This document shows positions 8,229 through 33,441 of a DNA stretch of 64,000 nucleotides, piece after piece. The notes under the pieces were generated by a model. It had not been told where the DNA came from, did not search any database, and worked only from the letters and a program-made list of their open reading frames with translations. The position numbers and the translations under genes are program-made. Source of the stretch: Rosistilla carotiformis (GTDB lineage Bacteria; Planctomycetota; Planctomycetia; Pirellulales; Pirellulaceae); the NCBI RefSeq assembly GCF_007753095.1, contig NZ_CP036348.1, positions 5,495,411-5,559,410 on the forward strand, read 5' to 3'. Within the stretch, counting starts at the first letter, position 1. Every line of letters begins with the position of its first letter.

Positions 8229-9194
8229 ATGACGATCGGTATCGAAGGACTGTTGGCCGAATTGGAATCCGAGGGGCACGCGGGCTGGGCCGAAACGCTG
8301 CGGCAACGGGCTCGCGAATTTGAGCACGATGCGGCGCATGGGCTGTGGTCGCAGTGGACTCAGGCGACCTGTGATCTTCCCGCGGTCGAAGCGGTGACCG
8401 CCGACTTCTCGCTGCCGGCGGTAACGCTTTCCGGCGAGATCAGCAACGAAGACCAGCAGCGATTGCGGGAACAACTGCGACTGTTTCATCCCTGGCGAAA
8501 GGGGCCGTTCGATCTGTTTGGAATCGCCATCGATACCGAATGGCGCAGCGATTGGAAGTGGTCTCGCGTCGCGCCGCATCTCGATCTGCGGGATGCCAGC
8601 GTCTTGGATGTCGGTTGTGGCAACGGGTATTACGGTTGGCGAATGCTCGCCGCCGGGGCGCGTCGCGTGATCGGATTGGATCCCTTTCCGCTCTACATCG
8701 CCCAAAATCGTGTCGTCGAACATTACGTCGGCGGTTCGGCGGCGCACGTTCTGCCCGGCACCGACGCCGATCTTCCGAAGCGGTTGGAGGCGTTTGACGT
8801 CGCCTTTTCGATGGGCGTTTTGTATCACCGCACCAGCCCGATCGATCACCTGAAATCGATGCTCCAGTCGCTGCGACCGGGAGGCAAATTGGTGCTGGAA
8901 ACGTTGATCATCGACCATCCCGATTCGCAGGTTTTGATCCCCGAGGGTCGTTACGCCAAGATGCGGAACGTCTGGTTTATTCCTTCGCTGACGATGCTCG
9001 AGCGGTTTCTTTCCCGCTGTGGATTCCGCGAGATCGAAGTCGTCGACGTCTGCGTCACGACGACCGAAGAACAGCGGCGGACCGAGTGGATGGAGTTCGA
9101 ATCGTTAGCCGATTTCCTCTCTCCCGATCAAACGACCACGATCGAAGGGCACCCGCTGCCAACCCGCGCAACCCTCATCGCCTCCCGCGGTTAA
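8229..9194 (+). CDS. cmoB: tRNA U34 carboxymethyltransferase
   Basis: 321 residues. CmoB transfers the carboxymethyl group from carboxy-SAM to 5-hydroxyuridine 34 of tRNA, giving cmo5U. Visible features: LFHPWRKGPFDLFG (about 85-98), whose Lys/Trp contact the donor, IDTEWRSDWKWSR, the Rossmann loop DVGCGNGYYG (127-136), and MGVLYHRTSP. Together with cmoA it forms a complete donor-synthesis and transfer unit. The hydroxylation step that precedes it needs other genes, not seen here. The window's own tRNA-Leu(UAG) is a plausible substrate. Confidence 0.95.
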   Translation: MTIGIEGLLAELESEGHAGWAETLRQRAREFEHDAAHGLWSQWTQATCDLPAVEAVTADFSLPAVTLSGEISNEDQQRLREQLRLFHPWRKGPFDLFGIAIDTEWRSDWKWSRVAPHLDLRDASVLDVGCGNGYYGWRMLAAGARRVIGLDPFPLYIAQNRVVEHYVGGSAAHVLPGTDADLPKRLEAFDVAFSMGVLYHRTSPIDHLKSMLQSLRPGGKLVLETLIIDHPDSQVLIPEGRYAKMRNVWFIPSLTMLERFLSRCGFREIEVVDVCVTTTEEQRRTEWMEFESLADFLSPDQTTTIEGHPLPTRATLIASRG

Positions 9195-9634
9195 AGCGAA
9201 CAAACGACGTGGCTGCGTCTCGCCTCGAAGCCTCTTAACGGTGTCGCGCATTCTTCATGTTAAAGGGCATGTCATCTGCCAGAACAACTGGCGATTCGAA
9301 CCGTCCTCTTCGGTGTGAATCCACCCTCGCGATCCCCAGACCCGATGGTTGGGTGGACGAAGCGAAGACAAAAAGCTTGAAAGTGATTTCAGAAACGCTA
9401 CGCTGTCCTTCACCCATCGCGAGATCGATGTCTGCCCAAAGGAGTGCTTGGGCGACGCGTTCTGCGCAACGATGCACGCGATGGGATCCTGCCTTCCCGC
9501 GATTCGGAAGGAGCGTTTGGGAGTGCGTGGGAATCGTCGTCGCTAGCGCCACGGGGCATCCGACGCTCGATTCATGCACTGTCGAATGCCTCTTTGCCGC
9601 AATCGTTCAACTCACCCTGAATGAGGAATCGGTT
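9195..9634. promoter_or_regulatory. Gene-free region upstream of the Tm-1-like gene
   Basis: About 440 bp. The frame of the next gene stays open upstream to 9257, but residues before 9635 are not family-like. A weak, imperfect -24/-12-like match (GGCAT-N5-CTGC, 9266-9279) is present 356 bp before the start codon; it is too degenerate to call as a promoter. AGGA at 9624-9627 is a fair ribosome binding site for ATG 9635. Confidence 0.4.
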
Positions 9635-10858
9635 ATGGCTTCTGCTGTCTATGCTGTTGGTACAATGGACACCAAGGGGGAGGAGTTGGCGTATGTCAAA
9701 GAGTGTTTACGATCGGCAGGGATCCGCGTCAAGATGGTCGACGTGGGGACTCAATTGCCGCCAACGGTGACTCCCGATGTGACTCGGGCTCAGGTTGCTG
9801 AGAACTCTGACTTGGGGACAGCTCACGGCGATCGGGGGCGAGCGGTGGCGGCGATGGGACGGGCGTTGGAGGTCTTTTTGACGGCGGAATTTGTTGCCGG
9901 TCGCGTCAGTGGCGTGATCGGTATCGGCGGCAGCGGTGGGACGTCGCTGATAACCGCCGCAATGCGTGCTCTGCCGATCGGATTGCCCAAGGTGATGGTC
10001 TCTACGGTTGCCAGCGGGAACACCGCTCCCTACGTCGATTGCAGCGATATCACGATGATGTATTCCGTCGTCGATGTGGCGGGACTCAACGTGGTCTCGC
10101 GGCGTATCCTCGCCAACGCGGCCCATGCGATCGCGGGGATGGTGCACTATCCAGCTCCCACATCGGATCAACGGCCAACGGTTGGGATGACGATGTTCGG
10201 CGTGACAACTCCCTGCGTGACCGATGTGCGGCAACGGATGGAGCAGCGTGGGTTTGATTGTCACGTCTTTCATGCGACCGGGACCGGCGGCCGCGCGATG
10301 GAGCGATTGGTCGACAACGGAATGATTCGCGGCGTCTTGGACGTGACGACAACCGAAGTTGCCGACGAAGTGGTCGGTGGCGTCTTTGCCGCCGGACCGA
10401 AGCGGTTCGATACGCTGATCGCCAAGGGGATTCCGTATGTTGTCAGTCTAGGAGCTGTCGACATGGTGAACTTTGGTGCCATGGAAACGGTGCCGGCGGA
10501 ATTTCGAGACCGGCGATTACACGTTCACAACGAACAGGTGACGCTAATGCGGACGACGCCCGAAGAGAATCGCGAGATCGCGCGATGGATGGGGGCAAAG
10601 TTTCGCCGCGCCACGGCGCCGCTGGTCCTGGTGATTCCCGAAGGCGGTCTGTCGATGTTGGATGCTCCGGGGATGCCGTTTTACGATCCAGAAGCCAACG
10701 GGGCGCTGTTCGATGAGCTGCAGAAGCAATTGCAAGGCTATGAAAACTGTCGCATCGTCCGCCTGCCGCATCACATCAACGACCTCGATTTCAGCGCGAA
10801 ACTAGTCGAGCACTACGACTGTCTCGACGCGATGCCGAAATGCCACGCCGCGGGATGA
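9635..10858 (+). CDS. Tm-1-like ATP-binding domain protein (UPF0261)
   Basis: 407 residues. It is related to the N-terminal domain of the tomato Tm-1 virus-resistance protein; the bacterial role is unknown. Visible: AVGTMDTKGEELAYV at the N terminus, the glycine-rich GIGGSGGTS (about 97-105), VASGNTAPYVDCSDITMMYSVVD, and MFGVTTPCV opening the second lobe. In plants this domain is fused to a TIM barrel; here the TIM-barrel partner is a separate gene at 13002. It is convergent with the regulator gene, with only 4 bp between the two stops. The start is chosen from the family N terminus and the AGGA site. Confidence 0.9.
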   Translation: MASAVYAVGTMDTKGEELAYVKECLRSAGIRVKMVDVGTQLPPTVTPDVTRAQVAENSDLGTAHGDRGRAVAAMGRALEVFLTAEFVAGRVSGVIGIGGSGGTSLITAAMRALPIGLPKVMVSTVASGNTAPYVDCSDITMMYSVVDVAGLNVVSRRILANAAHAIAGMVHYPAPTSDQRPTVGMTMFGVTTPCVTDVRQRMEQRGFDCHVFHATGTGGRAMERLVDNGMIRGVLDVTTTEVADEVVGGVFAAGPKRFDTLIAKGIPYVVSLGAVDMVNFGAMETVPAEFRDRRLHVHNEQVTLMRTTPEENREIARWMGAKFRRATAPLVLVIPEGGLSMLDAPGMPFYDPEANGALFDELQKQLQGYENCRIVRLPHHINDLDFSAKLVEHYDCLDAMPKCHAAG

Positions 10859-10862
10859 GTGG

Positions 10863-12626
10863 CTACGACGTGGAAGGGCGCTCCGCCTTGCCGCGATCCA
10901 ACCAGCGGTAAAACGTTTTTCGCGTCACGTTCAGCGCCGCGGCGGCTCGCGTGACGTTGCCCCCCGCCTCTTGCAGAGCCCGTTCGGCCTGTTCCTGTTT
11001 TGATGGCAGCGGTCGATCGGATTCGTCCGCCGACGAACGCAGATAGGGCTGCGGTTCGAACGACCAACCCTCCAAATGCGTTCCGTCTTCGAGAATCGCA
11101 CAGCGGTTCAGCACATGTTCCAGTTCGCGAACGTTTCCCGGCCAGGCGTGCGCACGCAACTTCTTTTCAAACCGCGACGAGATGCCGGCGATCGGCCGAT
11201 TCAGCTGGGTGCGCAGACTGGCCAGAAACGCCTCGACCAACAGCGGGATGTCTTCCAATCGCTCTCGCAGCGACGGCAACCGGATCGTGATCGTACTCAA
11301 CCGGTAGTACAGGTCGGCGCGAAAATCTCCCGCGTCGACCATCGCCGACAGCGGGCGGTTCGACGCGGTGACGATCCGCACGTCGACCGGAATCGTCGTG
11401 TCGCCGCCAACGCGGACAACTTCGTTCTGTTGCAGAACACGCAGCAGTGCGACCTGTCCGTGCGGGCTGAGGTCGGCAATTTCGTCGAGGAACAAGACGC
11501 CACCGTGAGCCAGTTCGAACTTTCCCGGACGCTGCCGCTCCGCTCCGGTAAACGCTCCGCGTTCGTGACCGAACAGTTCGCTTTCCAACAGCGACGACGG
11601 GATCGCTCCGCAGTTGAGCGTGACCAGCGGATGGTTCGCTCGCGAACTCAAACGATGCAACATCCCAGCGACCAGTTCCTTGCCGGTTCCCGTTTCCCCT
11701 TCGACGCAGACGGTCACGTCTTGATGCCCAACGCGATTGATGACGTCGAAGACCTGTCGCATCGCCGGGCTGTGCCCAACCATGCCACCAAACGTTTTGA
11801 CGCCTCCGGCGCGGGCACTCGACGCGACTCCTTTGAACCGCCGAAGCGTCGTGTTGACGATGTCTTGAACCGGCAGGCGTTCGAAGACCGATCCACCAGC
11901 GAAGCCATGGATCGAACTGTGGCGAAAGACCTCGCTCAATTCCGTGGGGGCGGTGATCGGCCCGCCGAAAGCGACCCGCACGCATTCCGGACGCGAGTCG
12001 GCGGCGGCCGAGAGTTTGTTCAGCTGAGAGATGGCGCGGTGGACGTCGTCCCGCTTGGCTCGAAAATCGTCGCTCGATCGCGTCAGCCCGACGTCCAGGA
12101 TCAAGCCGTCGACGCCCGTCGCGACGAAGCGTTCGACCTCCTGGACCGACAGCGAAAATCCAAACGTGACAAAGCCCAACTCGCGGGCGACGGCAAGCAT
12201 CTCCGCCTCGGCCTCGGTCCCCAGGCCTTCCTTTTCCAGATGCTTGCGAAACTTGCCATCGACAAAACCGATCGCCGGCCAATTGACGACACCGATCACA
12301 CCGAGATCCTGCAGTTCGCGCAAGCGGTCGCGAATCGGACGCGTCGGATCGACACCGAAGACGCCTGCGATGATCGGCAGATCGCCGGACCGCGGCAGCA
12401 TCTGCTCCTTCAACAACTCCAGCGTTTGATCGTTGGCATTGCCATAGGGCATGAAGGCGGCGAGCGTCCCCGATCCCATCGACCGGTAGATGCCCGCGTT
12501 GAGAACCATCAACGCATCGGCTTCCGATTCGACGGCGCACTTTGCGATCAGCCCCGATCCAGGGACCACCATCAACAGCGGCGTCCCGGTTCGCGATTCT
12601 TCGAGTCGGTTGCGAAAATCGATCAT
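10863..12626 (-). CDS. Sigma-54 activator with a TIM-barrel (PEP-hydrolase-like) sensor domain
   Basis: 587 residues. Residues 1-265 form a TIM barrel of the PEP-hydrolase-like family (PF09370 type), matching the enzyme at 13002 in order: YGNAND, GVFGVDP, NWPAIGFVDGKFR, FGGPITAP, GGSVFERLP. An AAA+ domain follows (about 280-515): Walker A GETGTGKE (310-317), the GAFTGA loop (357-362) that contacts sigma-54, Walker B VLFLDEI, and WPGNVRELEH. A Fis-type helix-turn-helix ends it (about 550-580, GGNVTRAAAALNVTRKTFYRWL). Start ATG 12624-12626 follows a GGAGGT site (complement of 12631-12636). It probably senses a metabolite in the barrel and activates the divergent gene. The barrel replaces the usual receiver, PAS or GAF input. 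Confidence 0.93.
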   Translation of the reverse strand: MIDFRNRLEESRTGTPLLMVVPGSGLIAKCAVESEADALMVLNAGIYRSMGSGTLAAFMPYGNANDQTLELLKEQMLPRSGDLPIIAGVFGVDPTRPIRDRLRELQDLGVIGVVNWPAIGFVDGKFRKHLEKEGLGTEAEAEMLAVARELGFVTFGFSLSVQEVERFVATGVDGLILDVGLTRSSDDFRAKRDDVHRAISQLNKLSAAADSRPECVRVAFGGPITAPTELSEVFRHSSIHGFAGGSVFERLPVQDIVNTTLRRFKGVASSARAGGVKTFGGMVGHSPAMRQVFDVINRVGHQDVTVCVEGETGTGKELVAGMLHRLSSRANHPLVTLNCGAIPSSLLESELFGHERGAFTGAERQRPGKFELAHGGVLFLDEIADLSPHGQVALLRVLQQNEVVRVGGDTTIPVDVRIVTASNRPLSAMVDAGDFRADLYYRLSTITIRLPSLRERLEDIPLLVEAFLASLRTQLNRPIAGISSRFEKKLRAHAWPGNVRELEHVLNRCAILEDGTHLEGWSFEPQPYLRSSADESDRPLPSKQEQAERALQEAGGNVTRAAAALNVTRKTFYRWLDRGKAERPSTS

Positions 12627-12642
12627 CGAAACCTCCACTTTC

Positions 12643-12654
12643 TGGTTAAAACCA
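12643..12654. promoter_or_regulatory. Palindromic operator-like site, copy 1
   Basis: TGGTTAAAACCA, a perfect palindrome (extended to CTGG..CCAG), 17 bp before the regulator start codon. It is identical to the copy at 12751-12762. Likely a binding site for the Fis-type domain of the adjacent activator, possibly for autoregulation; this is inference. Confidence 0.65.
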
Positions 12655-12684
12655 GCTTCGGCGAGCCCCCGGATTGTGTACTTC

Positions 12685-12715
12685 TGTGGATACACTACAC
12701 ACCCGGGTATCCACA
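12685..12715. repeat. Inverted repeat between the two operator copies
   Basis: TGTGGATAC (12685-12693) and GTATCCACA (12707-12715), a perfect 9-bp inverted repeat with a 13-base spacer containing ACCCGGGT. It may be a second regulator site or the base of a DNA bend between the two palindromes. Confidence 0.5.
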
Positions 12716-12750
12716 CGACAGCCTATCGAAGAGGGAATTGACGCTGATTT

Positions 12751-12762
12751 TGGTTAAAACCA
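12751..12762. promoter_or_regulatory. Palindromic operator-like site, copy 2 (putative upstream activator site)
   Basis: TGGTTAAAACCA again, 108 bp from copy 1 and about 46 bp upstream of the -24 element at 12809. Spaced repeats upstream of a -24/-12 promoter are typical of enhancer-binding-protein sites. Confidence 0.65.
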
Positions 12763-12808
12763 TCCCTTTTGTTGGCGTTTCGGCAACCTTGCGACTTCGA
12801 ATCGCAAA

Positions 12809-12824
12809 TGGCACAGCTGTTGCA
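12809..12824 (+). promoter_or_regulatory. Sigma-54 (-24/-12) promoter for the TIM-barrel gene
   Basis: TGGCAC (12809-12814), five bases, then TTGCA (12820-12824): an exact match to the consensus TGGCAC-N5-TTGCW with correct GG-to-GC spacing. Transcription would begin near 12835, leaving a leader of roughly 165 nt before ATG 13002. It faces away from the sigma-54 activator gene. Confidence 0.85.
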
Positions 12825-13001
12825 TTCCCCCCAATGGACCGCGATTTCAAAAATCGCTGTTTACCAACATCACGGATGTCCGCGGCGAGGCAACGTCGCA
12901 GATCCCTTTGTCGAGGATCGCTCCGACCGGCGTGCGGGCGGATCACCTAACTCATTCCACTTACTTTTACTCCACTCGCTCCTCTAGGAATTCCAAACAC
13001 G

Positions 13002-13910
13002 ATGTTGAAACACAATCGAACGAGCGTCTTGACGCGGTTGAAGAACAAAATTGCCGCCGGCAAGGCGATCATTGGCAGCGGTGCTGGCACCGGCATCTCG
13101 GCCAAGTGTGCCGAAGCCGGTGGCGCCGACCTGATCGTGATCTACAACTCCGGACGATTCCGGATGGCCGGCCGCGGTTCGCTGGCCGGCCTGCTTCCCT
13201 TTGGCAACGCCAACCAGATCGTTAAAGAGATGGCGTGCGAGGTCTTAACGATCGTCGAACGGACACCTGTCTTGGCCGGTGTCTGCGGAACCGATCCCTT
13301 TCTGTTGCGGGATCCGTTTCTGAGAGAGCTTCGCGAAATGGGCTTCGCGGGGATTCAGAACTTTCCCACCGTCGGCCTGATCGACGGTGTCTTCCGCGAG
13401 AACCTGGAAGAGACGGGGATGAGTTTCAACCTGGAGGTCGACCTGGTCGCCGCAGCGAACGACCAGGACATGCTGACGACTCCCTACGCGTTTGATCCCG
13501 ACCAAGGGCGGAAGTTGACCGTTGCGGGAGCCGACGTGGTGGTGGCCCACATGGGACTGACAACCAATGGAACCATCGGTGCCAAGACGGCAAAGACGCT
13601 CGATTCGTGTGTTCCCCTGGTCCGCGAAATCGCAGATGCGTGCCGTTCGGTCCGCGACGACGTCATCGTGTTGTGTCACGGTGGCCCGATCGCAACTCCC
13701 GACGATGCGCAATACATGCTCGACCGAATCCCGGAGATCCACGGATTCTATGGTGCCAGTTCGATGGAACGGCTCCCTTCGGAAATTGCGATCACTCAAA
13801 TGATCGAGCAATTTGCAAAACTGAACCTGAACCAAACAGGAGATGCAATCACGGATCGACAACCCCACCGCAGCGCTGCCAATGGCAAGCATGCTGCAAA
13901 ATTGAGCTGA
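13002..13910 (+). CDS. TIM-barrel protein of the PEP-hydrolase-like family (Tm-1 C-domain type)
   Basis: 302 residues. It belongs to the TIM-barrel family annotated as phosphoenolpyruvate hydrolase-like or TIM-barrel signal transduction protein (PF09370 type). Motifs: [69 protein letters not shown] and [11 protein letters not shown]. Length and motifs fit the C-terminal half of plant Tm-1, so it probably works with the UPF0261 protein at 9635. The chemical reaction is unknown. It is driven by the sigma-54 promoter at 12809. The last 25 residues are polar and unlike the family core. Confidence 0.9.
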
Positions 13911-13999
13911 CCGGCTCGCCACTCCCGACGTCAATCTGCGGTCGCCGCTCGTACGATCGCTCGCTTTTTCAATTGGACTTTTTAAGTTGAGGGACTTCA

Positions 14000-15004
14000 A
14001 TGATGAGTCGTTTATTACGCCCGAAGCGAAGTGCGTTCACTCTTGTCGAACTGTTGGTGGTGATCGCCGTGATCGGCATCCTCGTGGGGCTGTTGCTACC
14101 CGCCGTACAAGCGGCGCGCGAAGCCGCACGGCGAATGCAGTGCTCGAACAATATGAAGCAGCTTGGATTGGCGATGCATAACTACGAGAACACCCACCGG
14201 GTCTTTCCCATGGGCTGGGCTCACCACATCGAAAACCGGCTGACCGGCACCGGTCGGGGAAACTGTTTCACCACCAATCATGGCGCAGGGGACCGGATTG
14301 GCCGCAGCCCATGGACCGCGATGATCCTGCCCTTCATCGAACAAAACGCCATCTACGAACAGTTCGATTCCAACTATGCGATCAACTGGGCTTTGCACTC
14401 CAGTTGGGCGGGAGGTCGCGAAAACGAATCGGTCTGGTTGATGTCGATCGAAGCTTTCAAATGCCCCAGCGACCCACGGAACTCGGGCCAAGACAACCTG
14501 CTGAATTATCTGGGCGTCTCCGGCGGCGTCGAATACACCTGTTGGAACCTGGGCGATCTGGACGATGTTGGCGTCCGCGGTTTGGATAACGACGGGATGT
14601 TGTACCTAGGATCGAAAACCAAATTTGCCCACGTGCTCGATGGCACATCGAATACGTTCTTGCTGGGAGAAACCAAATACCCACGTGCTCGAGGCGACGA
14701 TCCAACGCAAGACAATTACCTGGCCTGGGGCTCGGCTGGGATGGCTTGGAACTCCGTTCCACAGACCGCGATCTGTGCCACCGCTCGCGACCAGATCAAC
14801 ACTTTCTACCCTTCGATGGCTCCCGGTCAAACCCCATCGCACGCCCACATGCAGCGAGTCTTCGGCAGTTACCATCCCGGCGGATGTATGTTCACCATGG
14901 TCGACGGATCGGTCAGCTTCCGATCGGAAAACATCGACATCAATCTGTACCAAACGATGGGGACCCGAGCTGACGGTCTGCCTATTGGAGGAGCGCCTCA
15001 ATGA
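14000..15004 (+). CDS. DUF1559 pseudopilin-like protein
   Basis: 334 residues. It has a type IV pilin/type II secretion-like N terminus ([20 protein letters not shown]) with a prepilin-peptidase type site, then [31 protein letters not shown], and near the C terminus HPGGCMFTMVDGSVSF, the H-X9-DG motif. This expanded family is a planctomycete hallmark; its exact role is unknown, probably in a cell-envelope or secretion assembly. The stop overlaps the start of the lipoprotein gene by ATGA. One of five copies in the window. Confidence 0.93.
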   Translation: MMSRLLRPKRSAFTLVELLVVIAVIGILVGLLLPAVQAAREAARRMQCSNNMKQLGLAMHNYENTHRVFPMGWAHHIENRLTGTGRGNCFTTNHGAGDRIGRSPWTAMILPFIEQNAIYEQFDSNYAINWALHSSWAGGRENESVWLMSIEAFKCPSDPRNSGQDNLLNYLGVSGGVEYTCWNLGDLDDVGVRGLDNDGMLYLGSKTKFAHVLDGTSNTFLLGETKYPRARGDDPTQDNYLAWGSAGMAWNSVPQTAICATARDQINTFYPSMAPGQTPSHAHMQRVFGSYHPGGCMFTMVDGSVSFRSENIDINLYQTMGTRADGLPIGGAPQ

Positions 15005-15408
15005 GATTCTCTGTCGCTAAATTTTCGGTTCTCACAGTTGTGGTCGCCCTGTTGGGATCGACGGTTGGATGTGGAGGAACCGACGGTCCACCCCGGGCCG
15101 AAGTTTCGGGATATGTCACCTTCCAAGGGCAGCCCGTTCCCGTCGGCACGATCGAATACCGCCCCAACGCCGAAAAGGGAACCAGCGGACCTCAAGTGAT
15201 CCTTGTGATCCAAGACGGTTATTATGACTCCGACGGAAAAGGCCCCGTCTTTGGTCATCATACTGTCAAAGTTTCGGGATACACGGGAGTCGAAATTCCA
15301 TTTGTTCCCGAAGGAGAGCGTTTGTTTCCGGTGCATAAGGATGATGTGGAGATCGTCGAGGATAGCTATACGATCAACTACGATTTCCCTCTTCCCAACA
15401 ATGGGTAG
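15001..15408 (+). CDS. Small lipoprotein partner of DUF1559
   Basis: 135 residues. The signal sequence ends in STVGC, so Cys24 is the probable lipidated residue. The mature part reads AEVSGYVTFQGQPVPVGTIEYRPN, the opening of a carboxypeptidase-regulatory-like (transthyretin-type) beta domain seen in planctomycete lipoproteins. Translation is coupled to the DUF1559 gene by a 4-base overlap. It should act at a membrane surface; no enzyme residues are evident. A hairpin lies 24 bp downstream. Confidence 0.8.
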   Translation: MRFSVAKFSVLTVVVALLGSTVGCGGTDGPPRAEVSGYVTFQGQPVPVGTIEYRPNAEKGTSGPQVILVIQDGYYDSDGKGPVFGHHTVKVSGYTGVEIPFVPEGERLFPVHKDDVEIVEDSYTINYDFPLPNNG

Positions 15409-15432
15409 ATGCGAAGCGATGTTGCGATGATC

Positions 15433-15465
15433 GATCAGTGCAGACCTTGCCTCGCTGCACTGATC
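15433..15465 (+). terminator. Hairpin after the DUF1559-lipoprotein unit
   Basis: GATCAGTGCAG (15433-15443) and CTGCACTGATC (15455-15465) form a perfect 11-bp stem with an 11-base loop. There is no T run, so termination strength is uncertain. Confidence 0.5.
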
Positions 15466-15581
15466 ATCCCCGCGACATTCAAGATTCGATGAACCCCATC
15501 TGCCCCGATCGATGTAGCCCGCCAATCGATTTGTTTTCGCTTTCACTGCACGAACGATCAACTCAACTCTCACGGTGTGAA

Positions 15582-18500
15582 ATGTTTTTATCTCTTCTCG
15601 ATCGCTTTCGGCGAACCCTTCCCGTCGGAATCGTTGCGGTGTGTGTCGCGTCTGTGGCGGAACCGACCGACGCAAACGAATTCTTCCCACGTTTTTCGGT
15701 CGAAAATCTCGTCCAACGCGACAGTCACAGTACGGTGACGATCGGCCCCGATGGCCATCTCTACACCACGACAACCAATTCGGGCGGACGCGATTTGCGG
15801 GACAATGGCGAAGGGAAAATGGTCAAGGAGCACCTGGGCGAGGTCTGGCGTTACCAGCTGGATCCGGCAACGGGGCGCGTTGTCGGTGAAGAACGTCTGT
15901 TGATGCTCCCCGGCCCGGTCAACGGCTTCGTCTTTGATCCCTCGGCGACAGCGGAGAACCTCGTCTTCTACATCACCGTCCTCAACGACCGCGGGCACAT
16001 GAATCGCATTCGCGTCAAGCCGGTCGGAGCTGCCGACCCGGTAATCGAGAACACGATCGTGTTGGACTTCTTAGGTCGTGGTGGCAATCATGGGATGAAC
16101 AATCTCGTCTTCACCCCGTCGGGAAAAATGTACGCCAACCAAGGCGGACGGACTTTCTGGGGAACGACCGAAGACAATCAGAGCGCAGCCGTTCTGGAGA
16201 TCGATTTCCAACATCCCGACTTTGCCAAGGGAGCGGTCTCGCCGCGCGACTACACGCTGGAACAAATGCAGGGAGGCGACGCGCCGATTCAATTGGTCGC
16301 CACCGGACTTCGCAACCCGCACGGGATCGTCCAACATTCCAACGGGGAATATTATGTCACCATCCACGATCCACCTCGAGGGCCGTTGCTGGTCGGTGGT
16401 CCGATCAAAGAAGAGGTTGTCTCCGATGGGCCGCCTGATTTGGTTGCTCGTCTAAAACGAGGAGCCTATTACGGCCATGCGAATCCGCTTCGCAAGGAAT
16501 GGGTTTCTTACGGCGGCAACCCGACGGCGGAGGTCGATCCATTCGAGATCCCCGAATATCCGGTCGGCACGATGCCGCTGCCGAACTTCGATCTCAGCCT
16601 GATGATCGGAACGCGGCGGAATCATTGCATCAGCGGAATCGATGAATACCTCAACGGCGATCTGGTCGCCGGATACCTGTACGCCCAGGGCGCCGAAGGA
16701 GTCAACCTGGCGGGGATCGAGCGTTTTGTGTTGGATGAGAATGGAAACTTCACCGGGTTCCACGAGTTTCTTAAAGGCGAAGACAACCAGCCGATCGTCT
16801 TCCAAGGGGTGATGGATCTGTTTGTCACCGAACAGGGCTGGATCTACGTCGCCAATTTTGGCCGTCGCCGCGGTGATGGAGGAATCAAGGGAGGCATCGA
16901 GTTGCTCAAGCCGATCGGTGGTAACATTCCTCCTTCGGTTGTGATCAAGACGCCTGAAAATCGGTCGGTCTATGGCGCCGACGCAACGGTCGACTTCCAC
17001 ATTGAAGCCCATGATTACGACGGGCAGGTTTCGGAAGTGGTTCTCTTGGTCAATGGAAAGTCACAAAAATGTGTCCACTCTAAAACGGATGATTCCCTGT
17101 GGGGCGTCCGCTGGAAACAGCCACCACGCGGCCGATACGAGGTACAAGCGCGTGTCACCGACAACGACGGCAAATCGGTAACGACGCAGCCGCTGTTTCT
17201 GCAGGTCGACGCAGACGCGCATCCTCCGGTGATCACCGAGATGCCGACGACCGTTGCCTTTGTTGGGGCCGACTATCGATCGACAGTCCGGGCGGATAGC
17301 CAGGCGGATGTTCGCTACGCCTTGCGGGACGCTCCCGAGGGAATGAAGATCGATCGCAAGTCGGGAGAGGTCTGGTGGCGTCCCAACCGTCCCGGTACCT
17401 ACACCGCCCGCGTGATCGTCGATAATGGCACTCATCCGGCGGCCGAACGCAAGCTGCAGATCGACGCGCTCGCCGCGCGGCCTGCCGATTATCCACCCGG
17501 TGCGACCAAGGGTTTGGTAACCGGCATCGAATACGCGACCGCATCGGAAGATCGTTCGGTGCAATCGGGGACTGTGTCGAGTTTCGAATTGGTTCCGCCA
17601 TCCAACGCGGGGATGGTCTTCACCGGCTTCCTGGAGGTCGACGAGCCAGGTGTTTATGAATTCGCAACAACCCAGCCGGGCTCAACGACATTCACGATCG
17701 GAACGTCGCAGGTGTTCAGCGGTCCGAGTTCGCCAGCTGGTTTGATTCCGCTGGAACCGGGAAAACATGCGTTTACGCTGCGGATCGATCGCGGTGCCGG
17801 ATCGGTCCCATGCGCGCTGGAGATGCGCAGTCCGCATGCCGCGTCCCGTTCACCGCTGCCGACGTCGGCGCTGTTTCGTCATGCGAAGGCATACGGAATC
17901 GATCGCTATCACGGATCGGAACCCTACCTGCAGATGCCGCGCAGCGAACGCGATTTCCTTCCGCAGAAGCTCTCCGAAACGGGAGCCTTTGCCGACGTCC
18001 GCTCGATGACGTTGGCCGACGGAGCGATTCCGTACGACGTGAATTCGCCGTTGTGGTCCGACGGAGCGTTTAAGCAACGCTGGGTCTTTGTTCCCGCGGG
18101 GATGACGATCGATTTCGATCCCAGCGAACCATGGACCTTCCCGGCCGGAACGGTCTTTGTAAAGCACTTTGCCCTGGGCGACGAACGCAAACGGATCGAG
18201 ACGCGGCTGACGGTCGTCAAAGAAGATCAAACGATCTACGGTGCGACCTACCGTTGGAACGATTCGAACGACGATGCCGACCTGGTAACGACCGGTGTTG
18301 AGGAGGAGGTGCGGTTAGCCGATGGCAGCCGACAGCCTTGGTTCTATCCCGGCCCCGAGGATTGCATGACGTGTCATACGCATGCGTCGGGGTATGTGCT
18401 TGGACCTAACACGCGACAGCTCAACCGCGATTTCCTTTACGCCACGACGGGTAAATCGGATAACCAGTTGCGTTCGCTAGCCCACGTCGGCTTGTTCACC

Positions 18501-18899
18501 GCGCCGCCAAAGGAGGATGCGATCGACGAACTCGATCGACTGTACCCGTTGGATGATGAAACGGTCCCGTTGGACCGGCGGGTTCGTTCTTATCTGGCCA
18601 GCAATTGCAGCCAGTGCCACACGACCGGCGGCGTTAATGCAAACTGGTTCGCCGACTACGCTGCCGAACTCTCCGATCTGGGCGTGTTGGATGCCAAGCC
18701 GCTCAATCACATGGGACTCTCCAACGTGAAACTGATCGCCCCGGGGAAACCGGACCGATCGGTGATGCTGTTGCGAGTGACGTCGGACAAACGCGGATAT
18801 CGTATGCCGCCGGTGGGACGTTTGAAAACCGATGAGAAAGCGGTCGAAGCGCTCACGCAGTGGATCGCCCAACTGCACGCCAAGGAAGAGGAGAAGTGA
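15582..18899 (+). CDS. Secreted beta-propeller/PA14-like/cytochrome c domain protein
   Basis: 1105 residues. A signal peptide (RRTLPVGIVAVCVASVA) fixes the start at 15582; the frame is open further upstream. Residues about 40-440 resemble a sorbosone-dehydrogenase-type propeller (VTIGPDGHLYTT, ATGLRNPHGIV, GDLVAGYLYAQG). Ig/cadherin-like stretches follow (about 445-630), then a PA14-like segment (about 650-740, FTGFLEVDEPGVYEFATT). The C-terminal third carries two haem-binding motifs, CMTCH (about 927) and CSQCH (about 1008). Oxidation of a sugar or polyol with electron transfer through the haems is inferred. It begins a run of exported catabolic genes. Confidence 0.82.
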   Translation: MFLSLLDRFRRTLPVGIVAVCVASVAEPTDANEFFPRFSVENLVQRDSHSTVTIGPDGHLYTTTTNSGGRDLRDNGEGKMVKEHLGEVWRYQLDPATGRVVGEERLLMLPGPVNGFVFDPSATAENLVFYITVLNDRGHMNRIRVKPVGAADPVIENTIVLDFLGRGGNHGMNNLVFTPSGKMYANQGGRTFWGTTEDNQSAAVLEIDFQHPDFAKGAVSPRDYTLEQMQGGDAPIQLVATGLRNPHGIVQHSNGEYYVTIHDPPRGPLLVGGPIKEEVVSDGPPDLVARLKRGAYYGHANPLRKEWVSYGGNPTAEVDPFEIPEYPVGTMPLPNFDLSLMIGTRRNHCISGIDEYLNGDLVAGYLYAQGAEGVNLAGIERFVLDENGNFTGFHEFLKGEDNQPIVFQGVMDLFVTEQGWIYVANFGRRRGDGGIKGGIELLKPIGGNIPPSVVIKTPENRSVYGADATVDFHIEAHDYDGQVSEVVLLVNGKSQKCVHSKTDDSLWGVRWKQPPRGRYEVQARVTDNDGKSVTTQPLFLQVDADAHPPVITEMPTTVAFVGADYRSTVRADSQADVRYALRDAPEGMKIDRKSGEVWWRPNRPGTYTARVIVDNGTHPAAERKLQIDALAARPADYPPGATKGLVTGIEYATASEDRSVQSGTVSSFELVPPSNAGMVFTGFLEVDEPGVYEFATTQPGSTTFTIGTSQVFSGPSSPAGLIPLEPGKHAFTLRIDRGAGSVPCALEMRSPHAASRSPLPTSALFRHAKAYGIDRYHGSEPYLQMPRSERDFLPQKLSETGAFADVRSMTLADGAIPYDVNSPLWSDGAFKQRWVFVPAGMTIDFDPSEPWTFPAGTVFVKHFALGDERKRIETRLTVVKEDQTIYGATYRWNDSNDDADLVTTGVEEEVRLADGSRQPWFYPGPEDCMTCHTHASGYVLGPNTRQLNRDFLYATTGKSDNQLRSLAHVGLFTAPPKEDAIDELDRLYPLDDETVPLDRRVRSYLASNCSQCHTTGGVNANWFADYAAELSDLGVLDAKPLNHMGLSNVKLIAPGKPDRSVMLLRVTSDKRGYRMPPVGRLKTDEKAVEALTQWIAQLHAKEEEK

Positions 18900-18988
18900 C
18901 GGGGAGGAATCCCCAAAACCTTTCCGATACGATGAGATCGAATAGCCAGACCACCCTTTGACTCCCCCCTGCCCAGGACGCAACAACG

Positions 18989-19924
18989 ATGATCGCCCCC
19001 GCTCGGTTCGCGGCAACGCTGACCCTTTGTCTGTTATCTCTTCCCGCAACCGCGTGGGCTCAGCCTCATGCCACGGCATCCGGCGACGCGGTCGCATTGT
19101 ATGGCCCGGATAATTTGACAGCTTGGCTGGTCATGTTCACCGATTCGGTCAAACGGACGCCGGCCGAACGGGCTGAGATGGTGGCGAACTTCGGATTCAA
19201 AAAGGTGGGCTTTGAAGCGTTCAAGAAATACCTTCCGATCTTGGAAGAGCAGATGGAGGAATATGCCAAACGCGATATCGAGGTGACGTCGGTTTATCTT
19301 GTTGTCGAAACCGACAAGCCGTCCGAAGAGGAGCAGGTGAAGCAGATCCTCGACGTTTTGAAACGGCGAGGCGAGACGCCGCAGATCTGGGCGATGTTCT
19401 CTCGCAACTCGTTCAAAGAGGTCTCGGGGGAAGAGCGGAACCAGCGTTTGATCGCTGCCTTTTCCGACCTCGCCCAATGCGTCGACCAATCGGGCTGCCA
19501 ATTGGCCCTCTACAACTACGGCTCGTGGTTCGGAAAGCTCGACGTCCAACTGGCGATCATCGATGGCGTGCGAGACCAGACGGGGATCAAGATCGGAACC
19601 GTCTTCAACTTCCATCGCGGCCATCAGCACATGCGCGACTTTCCGCAAGCGCTGCAGCGGATGATGCCTCATCTGTTTGCGGTCAATCTAAACGGCATGA
19701 ACTGGAAGGATGCCGACTACGACGGCGGCGGTGCCCGAATCATGCCGCTGGGCAGTGGCGACCACGAACTGACAATGATGCGTCAGCTTGCCGATTCGGG
19801 CTATCGTGGCCCCATCGGAATCATCGATCATCGCAGCGGTGTCGATGCCGAGGTCGCCCTTCAGGAAAACCTCACCGGCCTTGAAAAACTGCGCGAAGAA
19901 CTGAAGTCTCCTGCTGCGGAATAG
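18989..19924 (+). CDS. Exported sugar phosphate isomerase/epimerase-like TIM-barrel protein
   Basis: 311 residues with a cleavable signal peptide ending ATAWA-QP. The body resembles the xylose-isomerase-like TIM-barrel family: LALYNYGSWFG, GTVFNFHRGH, FAVNLNGMNWKDAD, GYRGPIGIIDHRSG. Candidate metal ligands (Glu, His, Asp) fall in these stretches, but I cannot assign them with certainty. Exported members are common in planctomycetes and their substrates are mostly unknown. It follows the propeller-cytochrome gene by 89 bp, probably in the same unit. Confidence 0.8.
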   Translation: MIAPARFAATLTLCLLSLPATAWAQPHATASGDAVALYGPDNLTAWLVMFTDSVKRTPAERAEMVANFGFKKVGFEAFKKYLPILEEQMEEYAKRDIEVTSVYLVVETDKPSEEEQVKQILDVLKRRGETPQIWAMFSRNSFKEVSGEERNQRLIAAFSDLAQCVDQSGCQLALYNYGSWFGKLDVQLAIIDGVRDQTGIKIGTVFNFHRGHQHMRDFPQALQRMMPHLFAVNLNGMNWKDADYDGGGARIMPLGSGDHELTMMRQLADSGYRGPIGIIDHRSGVDAEVALQENLTGLEKLREELKSPAAE

Positions 19925-20054
19925 ATCGTTCTTCGTCCGTTGCCGCACCTGCGATTCGAGCTCTTTAAAAGTCGATGCCGCTGTCGGTTTGGGTTACCAT
20001 GTTGGCTAACCTTCCCTCCCGCGATACTCTCCCTACCCTCCTCTGGAGACCTGC

Positions 20055-22142
20055 ATGTCCTCCCCGAATCCACGTCGTCATTTTTTACAATCATCGGCTG
20101 CCGGAGCGCTGGGAGCGTTGATCGCCCAACAGTGGTGGGCCAGCGGAGCCATGGGGCAATCCGAACCGGCGGCGATGACGCCGCTGAATCGTTTCCCGCG
20201 GATGATGCAGGAATATTACGTCGACCGGATGCGGGAATTTCATGACAAGCGAGTTGCCCGGCTCGATGCCATCGAAACACAAGCCGATGCTCAGGCGTAT
20301 GTGAAGTCGTGCCAAACGCGGGTGCGAGAATGCTTCGGACCGCGGCCCGAGAAGACGCCGCTGAATCCACAAATCACAGGCGTCGTTCAACGCGATGGTT
20401 ATCGGATCGAGAATCTGATCTTCGAGAGTCGCCCCGGTTTTTTGGTGACTGCCAATCTCTATATCCCAACGAATGTCGAAGGTCCACGCCCGGCGGTCGT
20501 CGGCACCTGCGGTCACTCTCACAACGGCAAAGCCGAAGAAGCGTATCAGTCGTTCTCGCAGGGACTCGCTAAAAAAGGTTATGTCTGCCTGATCTACGAT
20601 CCGATCGGTCAAGGCGAACGTTTGCAGTATGTCGATGAACACCTGAAGTCGCACGTCGGCGTCGGCGTTCGCGAGCATCTGTTGGCTGGGAATCAGCAGT
20701 TCCTAACGGGCGAGTCGTTCAGTATGTGGAGAGCCTGGGATGGCATCCGAGCCTTCGATTATCTACTCACCCGCCCCGAGGTCGATCCTGCACAGATCGG
20801 CGTGACAGGCAATTCGGGCGGCGGAACGATGACCACGCTGTTGGCCGGAGTCGACCAGCGGTGGGCGATGGCCGCTCCCTCCTGTTACGTGACGTCGTTC
20901 GTTCGGAACCTGGAGAACGAGTTGCCGACGGACACCGAACAATGTCCTCCCAATGCACTCGCTCTGGGCCTGGATCACGAAGACTTTTTGGCCGCACTGG
21001 CGCCTAAACCGGTCATCATCCTGGCCAAGGAGCAGGACTTCTTCGATGTCCGCGGTGCCGAACAAGCTTACGAGCGACTCAAACGACTCTACAGCAAGCT
21101 TGGGAAAGAGGAGAACATCGGTCTGTTCGTGGGGCCGACGCGTCACGGTTTCACTCTAGAGAATCGCGAGGCGATGTACGGTTGGTTCAATCGCGCCACC
21201 GGCAGCGATGGCGATCCGGCAGAGCCCGAGATGACGATCGAAGACGATAAAACCTTGTGGTGCACTCCCGACGGCCAGGTCAGCGAGTTGGGTTCGAAGA
21301 CGGTCCAACAGTTCACGCGCGAAGCGGCTGCTAAACTGGCGGAGAGTCGAGGTGAGATCGGCGCAAAGCCGCTGAAGAAGATGGTCCACGATTGGTTGGG
21401 GGATCGGAAACCGCTGGACGCTCCGCACTATCGGGTCTTGCGAAATCGCCGCGACCGCAAATATCCTCGCAAGTACGTTGCCGCGTATGTGATCGAGACC
21501 GAACCACGCGTGCAAGCGTTGGTCTATCGAATCGACAACGACTGGCACTTCTCGCGACCGCCCAAGGATAAGCGTCAGGCGATCCTGTATGTGTCGCATC
21601 ACTCGTCCGATGCGGAGCTACGCGAAAACGAACTGCTTGGTAAAGCGATCGCCGAAAATCCCGACACGCCCGTCTTCACGGTCGACCTGCGCGGCATGGG
21701 GGAATCGCAACCCGATACCGCCGACGTCAATTCCTATCTGTCCGCGTACGGTTCCGATTACATGTATGCGATTCACGGAGTGATGTTCCGCGACGAATAC
21801 CCGCGGCAACGGACGTTCGATCTTCTGACGGTCCTCAACTGGCTGCAGTCGTTCGGTCACGACGGAGTCCATTTGATCGGGAATGGTTGGGGAGCGATCC
21901 CGGCGACGTTTGCGGCGGTGTTGTCGCCGGTTGTGAAACAGGTCACGCTACAGCACTCCCTCAAGTCGTATACCGACCTTGCATCGGCGGAGACTTACAA
22001 GTGGCCGCTCTCGTCGATGGTCCCCGGGATCTTGCAGCGGTTCGACCTGCCCGACTGCTACCGCTTCCTGGAATCGAAACAGCTGAAGCAGATCGATCCC
22101 TGGGGCCCCAATTTCAACGAACCGCACGAAGAACCAAGCTGA
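20055..22142 (+). CDS. Tat-exported acetyl-xylan-esterase-like alpha/beta hydrolase
   Basis: 695 residues. The N terminus has RRHFLQ before a hydrophobic stretch, a twin-arginine-type signal. The first domain (about 100-380) is an alpha/beta hydrolase with nucleophile Ser254 in GNSGGG, candidate acid Asp328 in KEQDFFD and His364 in TRHGF, as in the AXE1/dienelactone-type esterases. The second half (about 480-690) looks like another alpha/beta fold (AILYVSHHSSD, VFTVDLRGMGES, VHLIGNGWGA), with GNGWG where a nucleophile would be expected, so it may be inactive. Likely role: deacylation of a polysaccharide or breakdown product outside the cytoplasm. Confidence 0.85.
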   Translation: MSSPNPRRHFLQSSAAGALGALIAQQWWASGAMGQSEPAAMTPLNRFPRMMQEYYVDRMREFHDKRVARLDAIETQADAQAYVKSCQTRVRECFGPRPEKTPLNPQITGVVQRDGYRIENLIFESRPGFLVTANLYIPTNVEGPRPAVVGTCGHSHNGKAEEAYQSFSQGLAKKGYVCLIYDPIGQGERLQYVDEHLKSHVGVGVREHLLAGNQQFLTGESFSMWRAWDGIRAFDYLLTRPEVDPAQIGVTGNSGGGTMTTLLAGVDQRWAMAAPSCYVTSFVRNLENELPTDTEQCPPNALALGLDHEDFLAALAPKPVIILAKEQDFFDVRGAEQAYERLKRLYSKLGKEENIGLFVGPTRHGFTLENREAMYGWFNRATGSDGDPAEPEMTIEDDKTLWCTPDGQVSELGSKTVQQFTREAAAKLAESRGEIGAKPLKKMVHDWLGDRKPLDAPHYRVLRNRRDRKYPRKYVAAYVIETEPRVQALVYRIDNDWHFSRPPKDKRQAILYVSHHSSDAELRENELLGKAIAENPDTPVFTVDLRGMGESQPDTADVNSYLSAYGSDYMYAIHGVMFRDEYPRQRTFDLLTVLNWLQSFGHDGVHLIGNGWGAIPATFAAVLSPVVKQVTLQHSLKSYTDLASAETYKWPLSSMVPGILQRFDLPDCYRFLESKQLKQIDPWGPNFNEPHEEPS

Positions 22143-22149
22143 TCCGCTG

Positions 22150-22182
22150 GTGAAGATCCTCCGGCAGGGAAAAGATCTTCAC
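22150..22182. terminator. Hairpin between convergent genes
   Basis: GTGAAGATC (22150-22158) and GATCTTCAC (22174-22182), a perfect 9-bp stem with a 15-base loop, lies in the 60-bp gap between the hydrolase and the HAD gene. Probably a bidirectional terminator. Confidence 0.55.
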
Positions 22183-22202
22183 ACGCCTCATTTTGCTTGC
22201 GG

Positions 22203-23579
22203 TTAATCTTCGATTTTTGAAAACCGCACGATCTCATTTCCCTCGGCGTCGATCAGGTACAACAGCCCGTCGTCGCCGATTCGGTAGCGGGTCACTTTGG
22301 CCAATGCCGCCATGAACCGCGTCTCTTGATCCATCAGCGATTGCGGACCGGCGCGGCGTGTCATGACCAACCGCCCCAGTTCGATCTTATCTCCGCTGAT
22401 CTTCGCTTTGCCCGAGTAGCGGTTGACCGAGGTGTTGCCCGATGCGGTACCGTCGTCGGCGATTTCCAGCGTCGTATGCGCCCGGTCGACGACCCCTCGG
22501 TTCTCGATATCCTCGGCCAACCAGTTGCCGACCAACAAATCCGAAACCTTATTTGCCGCTTCCATCGTGTCGGTTCCCCAAATCTGTTTCCAATCGGTCT
22601 TCATATCAACCACGTTCCAACCGTTGGCCGGTGCCGCTGCGAGCGCGGTAACCAGCGTGCCGCTGGCGGGCGGATGCGCGTCGTAAGCGTACTCGCGTTC
22701 GGCATCGGTGTGATGAACCAGCATCCCGAAACTTGGCAACGGGTTGCCGATCGTCGTGTATTCGAGCATCGCTTGATCGCCATCGCTGTTGCCAAAACAG
22801 GCGATCGGCCGCCGACCGATGAACTGATGAATCCCGACCGGTTTGCCATCCTTGTCGTCGACAAACGCCTGGTCCATCGTCTTGATTAAGACAGGTTTGC
22901 CGTCGCGAAATTCGAACTTCGTTAACGCTGTCGATCCGACGACATTCTGCGGCGGAATCCCGTAGACAGCTTCGGACCAGACCCGCATGAAATCGGCTCC
23001 ACCGCCGGAGACGATGAACGTCTCGAAACCATTGTCGCGGAGATACTTCAGCAGCTCCTGCATTGGTTGATAGGTGAGATCGGTGTACGCTTTTTGGAAG
23101 CGTGGATGTCGTGTCGTTTCCCGCCAGGTTTCGACGCGCGCATTAAACTCGTCGGTCGTGATGCCGGTGTGAGTCAGCGCCAGGATTCGCATCAAGCCAT
23201 CGTAGTGCTTGCCCGCCAGCAGCTTCTTCACATCGCCCGCCAACGCGGCTTGCACCATCGGATCCGCTGCCAATTTGGGTTCTTGCGGCGCACGGCGTTT
23301 GAGTTCTTCGAACACAAATTCAACTTGAAAGGGAAGCGGCGCTTCGGGCCACAGCGTGCCATCGTTATCGAAGACAGCGATCCGCTGAGCCGGCGGGACA
23401 TAGTCGTCGCCATCGCGATCGGTCACGCGGTTTACAAAATCGATCACCGCTTGTTTTCGAGCGGTTTCATTCCACGAAGGCAATGGATCGACGTGAGGAC
23501 TGGATCCCGGTTGTGCTTTTGCTGTCGCGGCTGACAACGACGCAAGCAGCGCGACGACGACGAGTGATGAGACTCTCAT
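22203..23579 (-). CDS. Exported HAD-family phosphatase with C-terminal META-like domain
   Basis: 458 residues. A signal peptide (MRVSSLVVVALLASLSAATAKA) supports the start at 23579; an in-frame ATG 12 bp upstream is possible. HAD motif I is FDNDGTLWPE (about 70), motif II FIVSGGGADF, and motif IV CFGNSDGDQAM. The phosphatase part ends near 340. The last 110 residues (LVGNWLAEDIENRG, ATGNTSVNRYSGK-like pattern, LVMTRRAGP) resemble a META/HslJ domain, an unusual fusion. It lies downstream of the kinase in the same direction, separated by 51 bp. Substrate unknown. Confidence 0.82.
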   Translation of the reverse strand: MRVSSLVVVALLASLSAATAKAQPGSSPHVDPLPSWNETARKQAVIDFVNRVTDRDGDDYVPPAQRIAVFDNDGTLWPEAPLPFQVEFVFEELKRRAPQEPKLAADPMVQAALAGDVKKLLAGKHYDGLMRILALTHTGITTDEFNARVETWRETTRHPRFQKAYTDLTYQPMQELLKYLRDNGFETFIVSGGGADFMRVWSEAVYGIPPQNVVGSTALTKFEFRDGKPVLIKTMDQAFVDDKDGKPVGIHQFIGRRPIACFGNSDGDQAMLEYTTIGNPLPSFGMLVHHTDAEREYAYDAHPPASGTLVTALAAAPANGWNVVDMKTDWKQIWGTDTMEAANKVSDLLVGNWLAEDIENRGVVDRAHTTLEIADDGTASGNTSVNRYSGKAKISGDKIELGRLVMTRRAGPQSLMDQETRFMAALAKVTRYRIGDDGLLYLIDAEGNEIVRFSKIED

Positions 23580-30452: not shown

Positions 30453-31511
<1,059 letters not shown>

Positions 31512-32988: not shown

Positions 32989-33441
32989 CGATGACTCCTG
33001 TGCAGGACGGAGGGGACGCTGCTGTGCGACGACGGCAACGTTTGAATTCGGTAAGCGTTCGAAAGAAATAGCAACCAATGTGCCATTGCGCTTCACCGGC
33101 GTGGGGAAGAGAGTGTTGAAATCGATGGCCGTCGAACTGAAACCAGATCTTGCAAGCTGCTTATGGGGACAGACAATACGCTAGGCGTGAACGCTGCCGG
33201 ATAAGGTTGCACTAACAAGCGGGCGCGTTGGTTTAGCCAGAAGCGGCTGCGGCACAATAGATCTTGGAAGGTGTCAAGTTTTTTTGCCCCACGGTTTGGG
33301 GTGCCCCCACGTTGAGCATCGCATGCAAAAAAAAGGGGCGATATAACTAGCAAAAAAGCCGGGCACAAAGACCCGGCTTCTCGTTTTGTTGTTACCAGAA
33401 CACAACGGACATGTTCATGGAACGCAACTTTGTTCGCGGTA
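32989..33441. other. Intergenic region between tandem DUF1559 genes
   Basis: About 450 bp. It contains the terminator at 33356-33379 and must hold the promoter of the downstream copy. No gene is seen. Confidence 0.4.
33356..33379 (-). terminator. Intrinsic terminator of a DUF1559 gene
   Basis: AAGCCGGG (33356-33363) and CCCGGCTT (33372-33379), eight-base loop, followed on the minus strand by a T run. The core stem (GCCGGG/CCCGGC) is the same as at 31888, consistent with duplication of gene plus terminator. Confidence 0.8.

Follow-up and report, generated by a model that had tools for sequence, protein, structure and literature searches.

In the window analysed here, a 64,000-nucleotide stretch of the Rosistilla carotiformis genome, a UPF0261 gene, a sigma-54 activator gene, and a gene for a stand-alone triosephosphate isomerase (TIM) barrel of family PF09370 form a locus that we read, with a probability of about 0.6, as a one-component sigma-54 switch dedicated to a catabolic operon, in which a degenerate sensor paralogous to the stand-alone barrel would read that barrel's ligand. 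The sequence-only reading had placed this trio at 9635-13910; these outer coordinates are exact, and all three gene identities were verified by Pfam at very low E-values (Table 1). The UPF0261 and activator genes are convergent, with 4 bp between them, and the activator and TIM genes are divergent across 375 bp. The genome, a single contig of 7.44 Mb, has two PF09370 matches, both at this locus: the stand-alone barrel (422 bits) and the N-terminal sensor of the activator (245 bits; cut-off, 33.8). With 31% identity between the two domains, the sensor is, as judged by sequence, a paralogue of the TIM barrel encoded by the facing gene. The domains, the promoter, the operator-like repeats, their conservation, and the residue loss in the sensor are read directly from the DNA and its translations.

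The activator adopts a modular architecture, comprising the PF09370 sensor, a central Sigma54_activat domain, and a C-terminal HTH_8 domain. All eight aligned activators (that of the window and seven relatives) share the same GAFTGA loop and the same invariant portions of Walker A and B, and HTH_8 (28.8 bits; cut-off, 22) provides the C-terminal helix-turn-helix (HTH) of a sigma-54 enhancer-binding protein. As expected of such a protein, an AAA+ domain with GAFTGA and Walker motifs is accompanied by a -24/-12 promoter at the target and by rpoN, of which the genome has a single copy (PF04552, E 5e-62). The assigned start, ATG 12626, agrees with the lengths of the seven aligned relatives, whose own starts were assigned by an open reading frame script; a GTG at 12716, upstream of the candidate operator, is a possible alternative start. 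The predicted structure of the whole activator was poor (mean predicted local distance difference test score (pLDDT) of 60.7, with the AAA part mostly below 50) and was set aside.

Residue loss in the sensor was followed by aligning 29 sensor domains with 53 stand-alone barrels, four outlying sensors (L125, L126, L127, and L129) having been excluded from 33. At least 92% of the stand-alone barrels agree at 108 positions, of which 36 are retained in at least 80% of the sensors and 72 are not. Among the positions lost in all 29 sensors are Y48, H183, and H226 of the stand-alone form, and among those retained in all 29 are R54, N71, E145, G185, G227, G228, S253, and R257. Because 72 of the 108 conserved positions are not kept, and Y48, H183, and H226 occur in no sensor, the activator domain is probably a relative of PF09370 rather than an active member of the family. 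In a quick tree of 75 domains, a single change separates the sensors from the stand-alone barrels; the branch concerned has modest support (75), and three outlying sensors adjoin it. The tree is compatible with a single origin of the sensor-activator fusion.

The intergenic region between the activator and TIM genes carries the DNA elements expected of such a switch. The strict -24/-12 pattern is matched four times in the 64 kb (0.20 expected), one match being TGGCACAGCTGTTGCA, which faces the TIM gene and whose score was reached by none of 200 shuffles of the intergenic region. Upstream of this promoter lies the inverted repeat TGTGGATAC-N13-GTATCCACA; GTGGATAC and its complement are confined to this repeat within the 64 kb on both strands, and the repeat is likely, from its sequence and position, to be the operator of the activator. 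A second repeat, GGTTAAAACC, has four copies in the 7.4-Mb genome, two of which lie here, 108 bp apart. This repeat was rejected as an operator because it is not kept across loci (the second copy is absent from congener G310, whose sensor is 98% identical, and none was noticed in the regions of other loci), whereas GGWWAC-type sites recur.

Related activators were collected by genome searches with the sensor alone and from 24 chosen genomes, namely, G310, the congener G242, and genomes in which PF09370 matched two or more times, a selection biased towards those holding both genes. After L069 was merged with L108 and L071 with L111, 35 distinct activator loci remained: the window, 27 others, and seven from named records (Arenibacter, Mucilaginibacter, an Anseongella metagenome-assembled genome (MAG), Pleomorphovibrio, a Cyclobacteriaceae MAG, and two Desulfobacterota MAGs). 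They include close kin (the window and L102, L117 and L118, L066 and L068), and in L067 the contig stops short of the AAA domain. Activators of this build are thus found in Planctomycetota, Bacteroidota, and Desulfobacterota. A gene of one of the two kinds is the nearest divergent gene, within 1.2 kb, in 24 of the 35 loci (UPF0261 in 14 and TIM in 10), and the TIM gene is part of the divergent gene run in 26, including L066 and L114, in which another gene comes first. UPF0261 lies in the same stretch in 24 loci (it is missing from that of L117 and L118), and all three genes are thereby present at 24 of the 35 loci, in keeping with the sequence-only reading, which had made its case depend on a neighbourhood conserved in related genomes. 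The order within the operon varies, with TIM followed by UPF0261 in the four Bacteroidota loci that have it and UPF0261 followed by TIM in the two Desulfobacterota loci. Some loci have further particularities. A cupin gene stands between activator and UPF0261 in L111 (8768-9241) and L113 (3336-3821), where it was counted as intergenic; Pfam was run on the L111 copy, and the L113 gene belongs to the same cluster. The activator-UPF0261 gaps of L106 and L112 are similar in length to these cupin-bearing gaps. In the draft genome of L121, the activator is split across two overlapping frames (10035-11890), by an assembly error or in a broken gene.

The regulatory layout recurs across these loci. After removal of five duplicate or nearly duplicate regions (L068, L069, L071, L102, and L118) from a set of 37, 32 remained, and in 21 of these the best-scoring sigma-54 site no more than 300 bp from the activator reaches at least 20. 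The same score is reached in 18 of the 22 regions adjoining UPF0261 or TIM, compared with 2 of 48 control regions (2 of 19 in an earlier, smaller control). The control consisted of regions before UPF0261 or TIM genes at 69 stand-alone-barrel loci, which yielded 48 usable regions after 29 strand-regions had been dropped at a locus edge; among the control loci, a few duplicate another one or come from genomes that also hold the activator. Half-sites of the form G[GT]WWAC occur 2.84 times per 300 bp, versus 0.5 in the control, with GTATAC in 12 of the 32 regions (1.3 expected), GGTAAC in 15 (3.6 expected), and inverted half-site pairs in 16 (1.0 expected). Because further genome searches gave only known activators (in 1 of 250, 3 of 23, 3 of 9, 6 of 170, and 6 of 45 genomes), the operator pattern was cross-validated with 6-mers in halves split by group, which exceeded all 200 shuffles in six of eight held-out halves. 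These data bear on the idea that the genes are coincidental neighbours, with an activator that serves promoters elsewhere and an incidental sigma-54 site ahead of the TIM gene. The window does hold three further strict -24/-12 matches, and four other sites score at least 22 on the sigma-54 scale, three of them before DUF1559 genes; the repetition of the divergent layout with its sigma-54 sites and half-sites in three phyla, together with the difference between 18 of 22 regions and 2 of 48 controls, makes coincidence very improbable.

Control of the UPF0261 gene differs in this genome. The UPF0261 gene of the window, L102, and L103 lies beyond the activator gene and converges with it, and that of L104 and L116 lies farther away; in 14 other loci, UPF0261 is nearer than TIM to the shared intergenic region. 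No sigma-54-like site above 18.5 was found in the regions upstream of UPF0261 in L102, L103, L104, and L116, and one half-site each is present in those of L103, L104, and L116. In this lineage, UPF0261 thus seems either to have left the controlled operon or to be controlled otherwise. The sequence-only reading of a split system under sigma-54 control therefore holds for the TIM gene, which has the -24/-12 promoter, and is not supported for UPF0261. Because the latter converges with the activator and lacks any recognisable site, only the TIM gene, perhaps with the genes behind it, is visibly under predicted sigma-54 control here.

Several observations weigh against the switch proposed above. 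In the window, the region upstream of UPF0261 (9195-9634) is devoid of operator half-sites, and none of its sigma-54-like sites scores above 19.7. The half-site pattern was picked after the sequences and their 6-mer enrichment had been viewed, and two of the eight held-out halves exceeded the shuffle mean only, not all shuffles. The assignment of the lost residues to catalysis and of the retained residues to ligand binding is drawn from conservation alone, and the stand-alone barrel is itself a putative enzyme. Distances between sensor and cognate barrel correlate with r 0.62 over 23 loci, a value that ignores species relatedness, as do those for sensor and UPF0261 (r 0.53) and for TIM and UPF0261 (r 0.50) over 22 loci; we read these distances as a sign that the activator and the UPF0261-TIM pair form a module whose parts were inherited and transferred together. 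Finally, nine of the 35 loci (L068, on a 3.4-kb contig, L120, L122-L127, and L129) have no UPF0261 or TIM gene beside the activator. In L120 and L122-L124, whose stretches give no UPF0261 or TIM matches, the divergent neighbour is a conserved gene of 980-1037 aa (cluster C13; PSCyt1, PSCyt2, and PSD1 in L122), and L122-L124 carry a gene of cluster C14 as well (DUF1501 in L122, the one scanned). By gene order, the C13 loci are a second target type of this kind of activator, and the sensor is not tied to one target, since these four loci face the C13 gene instead.

The nine loci lacking the operon are what one would expect if the sensor read a general phosphoenolpyruvate (PEP) or 2-oxoacid metabolite, reporting energy or carbon state, instead of a pathway compound. 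The folds point the same way, as the only solved relative found, 2p10, is titled a putative phosphonopyruvate hydrolase and is followed by Pdx1 and methylisocitrate lyase. Such a general role is unlikely, given that the exact half-site is limited to one inverted repeat in 64 kb and that the patchy distribution of the activator (6 of 170 and 6 of 45 genomes) favours a pathway-specific switch. The distance correlation, the encoding of the paralogues in divergent genes at 26 of the 35 loci, and the lack of putative catalytic residues in the sensor would equally suit a stand-alone barrel that is (also) a protein partner, forming mixed oligomers with the sensor and inhibiting or helping the activator in feedback on its own operon. 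This proposal is likewise improbable: UPF0261-TIM pairs stand beside TetR or GntR genes, with no such activator, in three of six plasmid records, and N49, S50, and H183 are present in all 53 stand-alone barrels, as an enzyme would show. The existence of pairs lacking this activator indicates that the stand-alone barrel has work of its own.

In the proposed switch, the sensor barrel would bind a compound that the stand-alone TIM barrel consumes or forms, or a closely related one, and the bound ligand would relieve or trigger the AAA+ ring, anchored through the Fis-type HTH at the GTGGATAC inverted repeat. The ring would remodel sigma-54 RNA polymerase at the -24/-12 promoter, and the TIM gene, perhaps with the genes behind it, would be switched on. 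UPF0261 may activate a sugar-derived or carboxylic compound that the TIM barrel then cleaves. We infer ligand binding by the sensor, DNA binding, the direction of control, and this chemistry from the features described. The predicted structure of the stand-alone barrel is fair (mean pLDDT of 75.6), and a fold search with this model placed 2p10 first, then, among the 50 matches listed, Pdx1, methylisocitrate lyase, and general TIM-barrel enzymes; Pdx1 and methylisocitrate lyase are enzymes of carbon-skeleton chemistry.

The neighbouring genes across loci and plasmids point to a sugar-derived or carboxylic substrate. Here, the TIM gene is followed by genes for a DUF1559 protein, a small protein, a 1153-aa cytochrome-type protein, an AP_endonuc_2 protein, and an esterase, and parts of this order recur in L103, L104, and L116, including, directly after TIM, a gene of the same cluster as the DUF1559 gene. 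Scanned neighbours elsewhere include ThuA, DUF7133, PQQ dehydrogenase with cytochrome c, GFO_IDH_MocA, 2-hydroxyacid dehydrogenase, and cupin, and in L070 a branched-chain-type ABC transporter. Two rhizobial plasmid records combine the UPF0261-TIM pair with a sugar ABC transporter and TetR (L143) or GntR (L144), and the pair on a Serratia plasmid (L145) adjoins a TetR gene; the plasmid records label UPF0261 as a Tm-1-like ATP-binding domain protein.

Table 1. Features of the locus and its downstream genes, with positions in the window
Feature	Position	Strand	Remarks
UPF0261 gene (Tm-1 N-terminal half)	9635-10858	+	407 aa; PF06792 E 2e-64, PF23189 E 4e-93
Sigma-54 activator gene with PF09370 TIM-barrel sensor	10863-12626	-	587 aa; PF00158 E 3e-67
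Activator HTH_8 DNA-binding domain (Fis-type), residues 548-576	10899-10985	-	E 1e-6
Activator AAA+ sigma-54 interaction domain, residues 282-448	11283-11783	-	Sigma54_activat
Activator sensor domain, PEP_hydrolase/TIM barrel PF09370, residues 10-266	11829-12599	-	E 1e-72
GGTTAAAACC repeat, copy 1	12640-12654		
Inverted repeat TGTGGATAC-N13-GTATCCACA, candidate operator (upstream activating sequence)	12685-12715		sequence only
GGTTAAAACC repeat, copy 2	12748-12762		missing from congener G310
-24/-12 sigma-54 promoter TGGCACAGCTGTTGCA, facing TIM gene	12809-12824	+	consensus match
Stand-alone TIM-barrel gene	13002-13910	+	302 aa; PF09370 E 1e-126; first gene past sigma-54 promoter
DUF1559 pilin-like gene	14000-15004	+	transcript possibly shared with TIM gene
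135-aa protein, no Pfam family	15001-15408	+	4-bp overlap with preceding DUF1559 gene
1153-aa protein, weak cytochrome-c-type matches (Cytochrome_CBB3, PSCyt1)	15438-18899	+	possibly same transcript as TIM
AP_endonuc_2 gene (xylose isomerase-like TIM barrel)	18989-19924	+	possibly same transcript as TIM
Acetyl-xylan-esterase-like alpha/beta hydrolase gene	20055-22142	+	possibly same transcript as TIM

Sigma-70 promoters and terminators show no excess over shuffles across 9000-22400, and no Rfam match at gathering score was found within 9000-15500. Elsewhere in the window lie three tandem DUF1559/N_methyl pilin-like genes (30453-31511, 31975-33096, and 33442-34560, all on the - strand), and in each a -24/-12 sigma-54-like site precedes the likely ATG (31612, 33085, and 34578, - strand); the three genes adjoin a Ser/Thr kinase gene (34947-37250, - strand), and no activator was found among their scanned neighbours. 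A consensus sigma-54 site at 58993-59008 (+ strand), inside and antisense to a DUF1501 gene (57723-59093), is probably due to chance.

PF09370 is widespread in the class, with matches in 281 of 397 genomes; its fusion to the activator is patchy. The fusion was AAA-verified in at least 15 of 392 genomes of the phylum sample, a lower bound, as only part of the long frames was fetched. Two families, at the cut-offs stated for each search, have the fusion in 6 of 170 and 6 of 45 genomes, respectively, and it is present in 1 of 250 genomes of the order of Mucilaginibacter; the congener G242 has no PF09370 match. We tentatively suggest, at slightly under even odds, that the activator arose by fusion of a copy of the TIM-barrel enzyme of the pathway to an AAA-HTH module, lost catalysis, and came to sense the ligand of that enzyme, and that regulator, operator code, and UPF0261-TIM operon spread together over at least three phyla.

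If the proposed switch is correct, knowing its inducer would tell which substrate the Tm-1-type TIM barrel uses, in plants and fungi too, and the locus would clearly exemplify a seemingly inactive enzyme copy serving as the transcriptional sensor for its own enzyme's operon. Because the sensor is a paralogue of the barrel, compounds that induce the promoter in a reporter assay would be candidate barrel ligands, and the arrangement could help to find what the bacterial relatives of Tm-1 act on. The UPF0261 protein is homologous to the inhibitor domain of Tm-1 (E 9e-113 to structure 3wry; 381 bits by phmmer) and is related to the Tm-1 structures 3wrv-3wry and to 9mpy. By analogy with tomato Tm-1, this similarity might suggest an antiviral system, a notion to which we give almost no credence: PADLOC is negative for UPF0261, TIM, and four downstream genes and matches the activator in its AAA-HTH part only, and the neighbour genes look metabolic.

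Barrels of this family have been described in sigma-54 activators before. A 2016 wheat paper (PMC5167734) states, in the passage available, that the TIM domain occurs as the N-terminal domain of sigma-54 activators, citing Bush and Dixon 2012; these PF09370 (PEP_hydrolase, alias TIM-br_sig_trns) activators have the same build as that described here. The novelty suggested by the sequence-only reading, which knew of no described case with its own enhancer-binding protein, does not hold as worded. The wheat paper's passage is silent on any cognate operon, promoter, or operator and does not compare residues, points that are covered here, and the paralogy between the sensor and the facing gene's barrel is the main addition of the present work. 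The UPF0261-TIM pair is reported from bacteria, archaea, fungi, and plants in the available part of PMC5028733, which sorts TBST proteins into four groups according to their domain structure and notes co-evolution with UPF0261; the word sigma is absent from its main text, as far as that was available. The accessible part of PMC12316311 makes no mention of UPF0261, TIM-barrel, or PEP hydrolase. A UPF0261 gene is mentioned in a paper about Brucella (PMC2364660). No proven substrate for the pair was found in the open-licence full-text literature, nor any paper on the cognate operon or operator in the open-licence literature, which omits most subscription papers.

The closest solved structure, the TIM barrel Mll9387 (2p10) of the PF09370 family, whose function is putative, matches the stand-alone barrel with E 3e-111 and the sensor with E 1e-41. 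Similar to other bacterial UPF0261 and TBST/TIM pairs, which are fused as Tm-1-like proteins in streptophytes, the two genes of the window lie near each other; they remain separate, flanking the activator, and UPF0261 stands apart from the TIM gene, unlike in paired bacterial UPF0261-TIM genes. The pairs on plasmids have TetR (L143 and L145) or GntR (L144) as regulator, in place of the dedicated sigma-54 activator found here. In its AAA+ domain with GAFTGA and its C-terminal HTH, the activator matches the models of PrpR, DhaR, NorR, and phenol regulators below cut-offs, and, as for other effector-sensing one-component sigma-54 activators, a divergent -24/-12 promoter is present. PrpR, DhaR, NorR, and the phenol regulators carry an N-terminal effector sensor of the PrpR_N, GAF, or V4R type. 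In contrast to these sensors, the sensor here is a TIM barrel related to the product of the facing gene.

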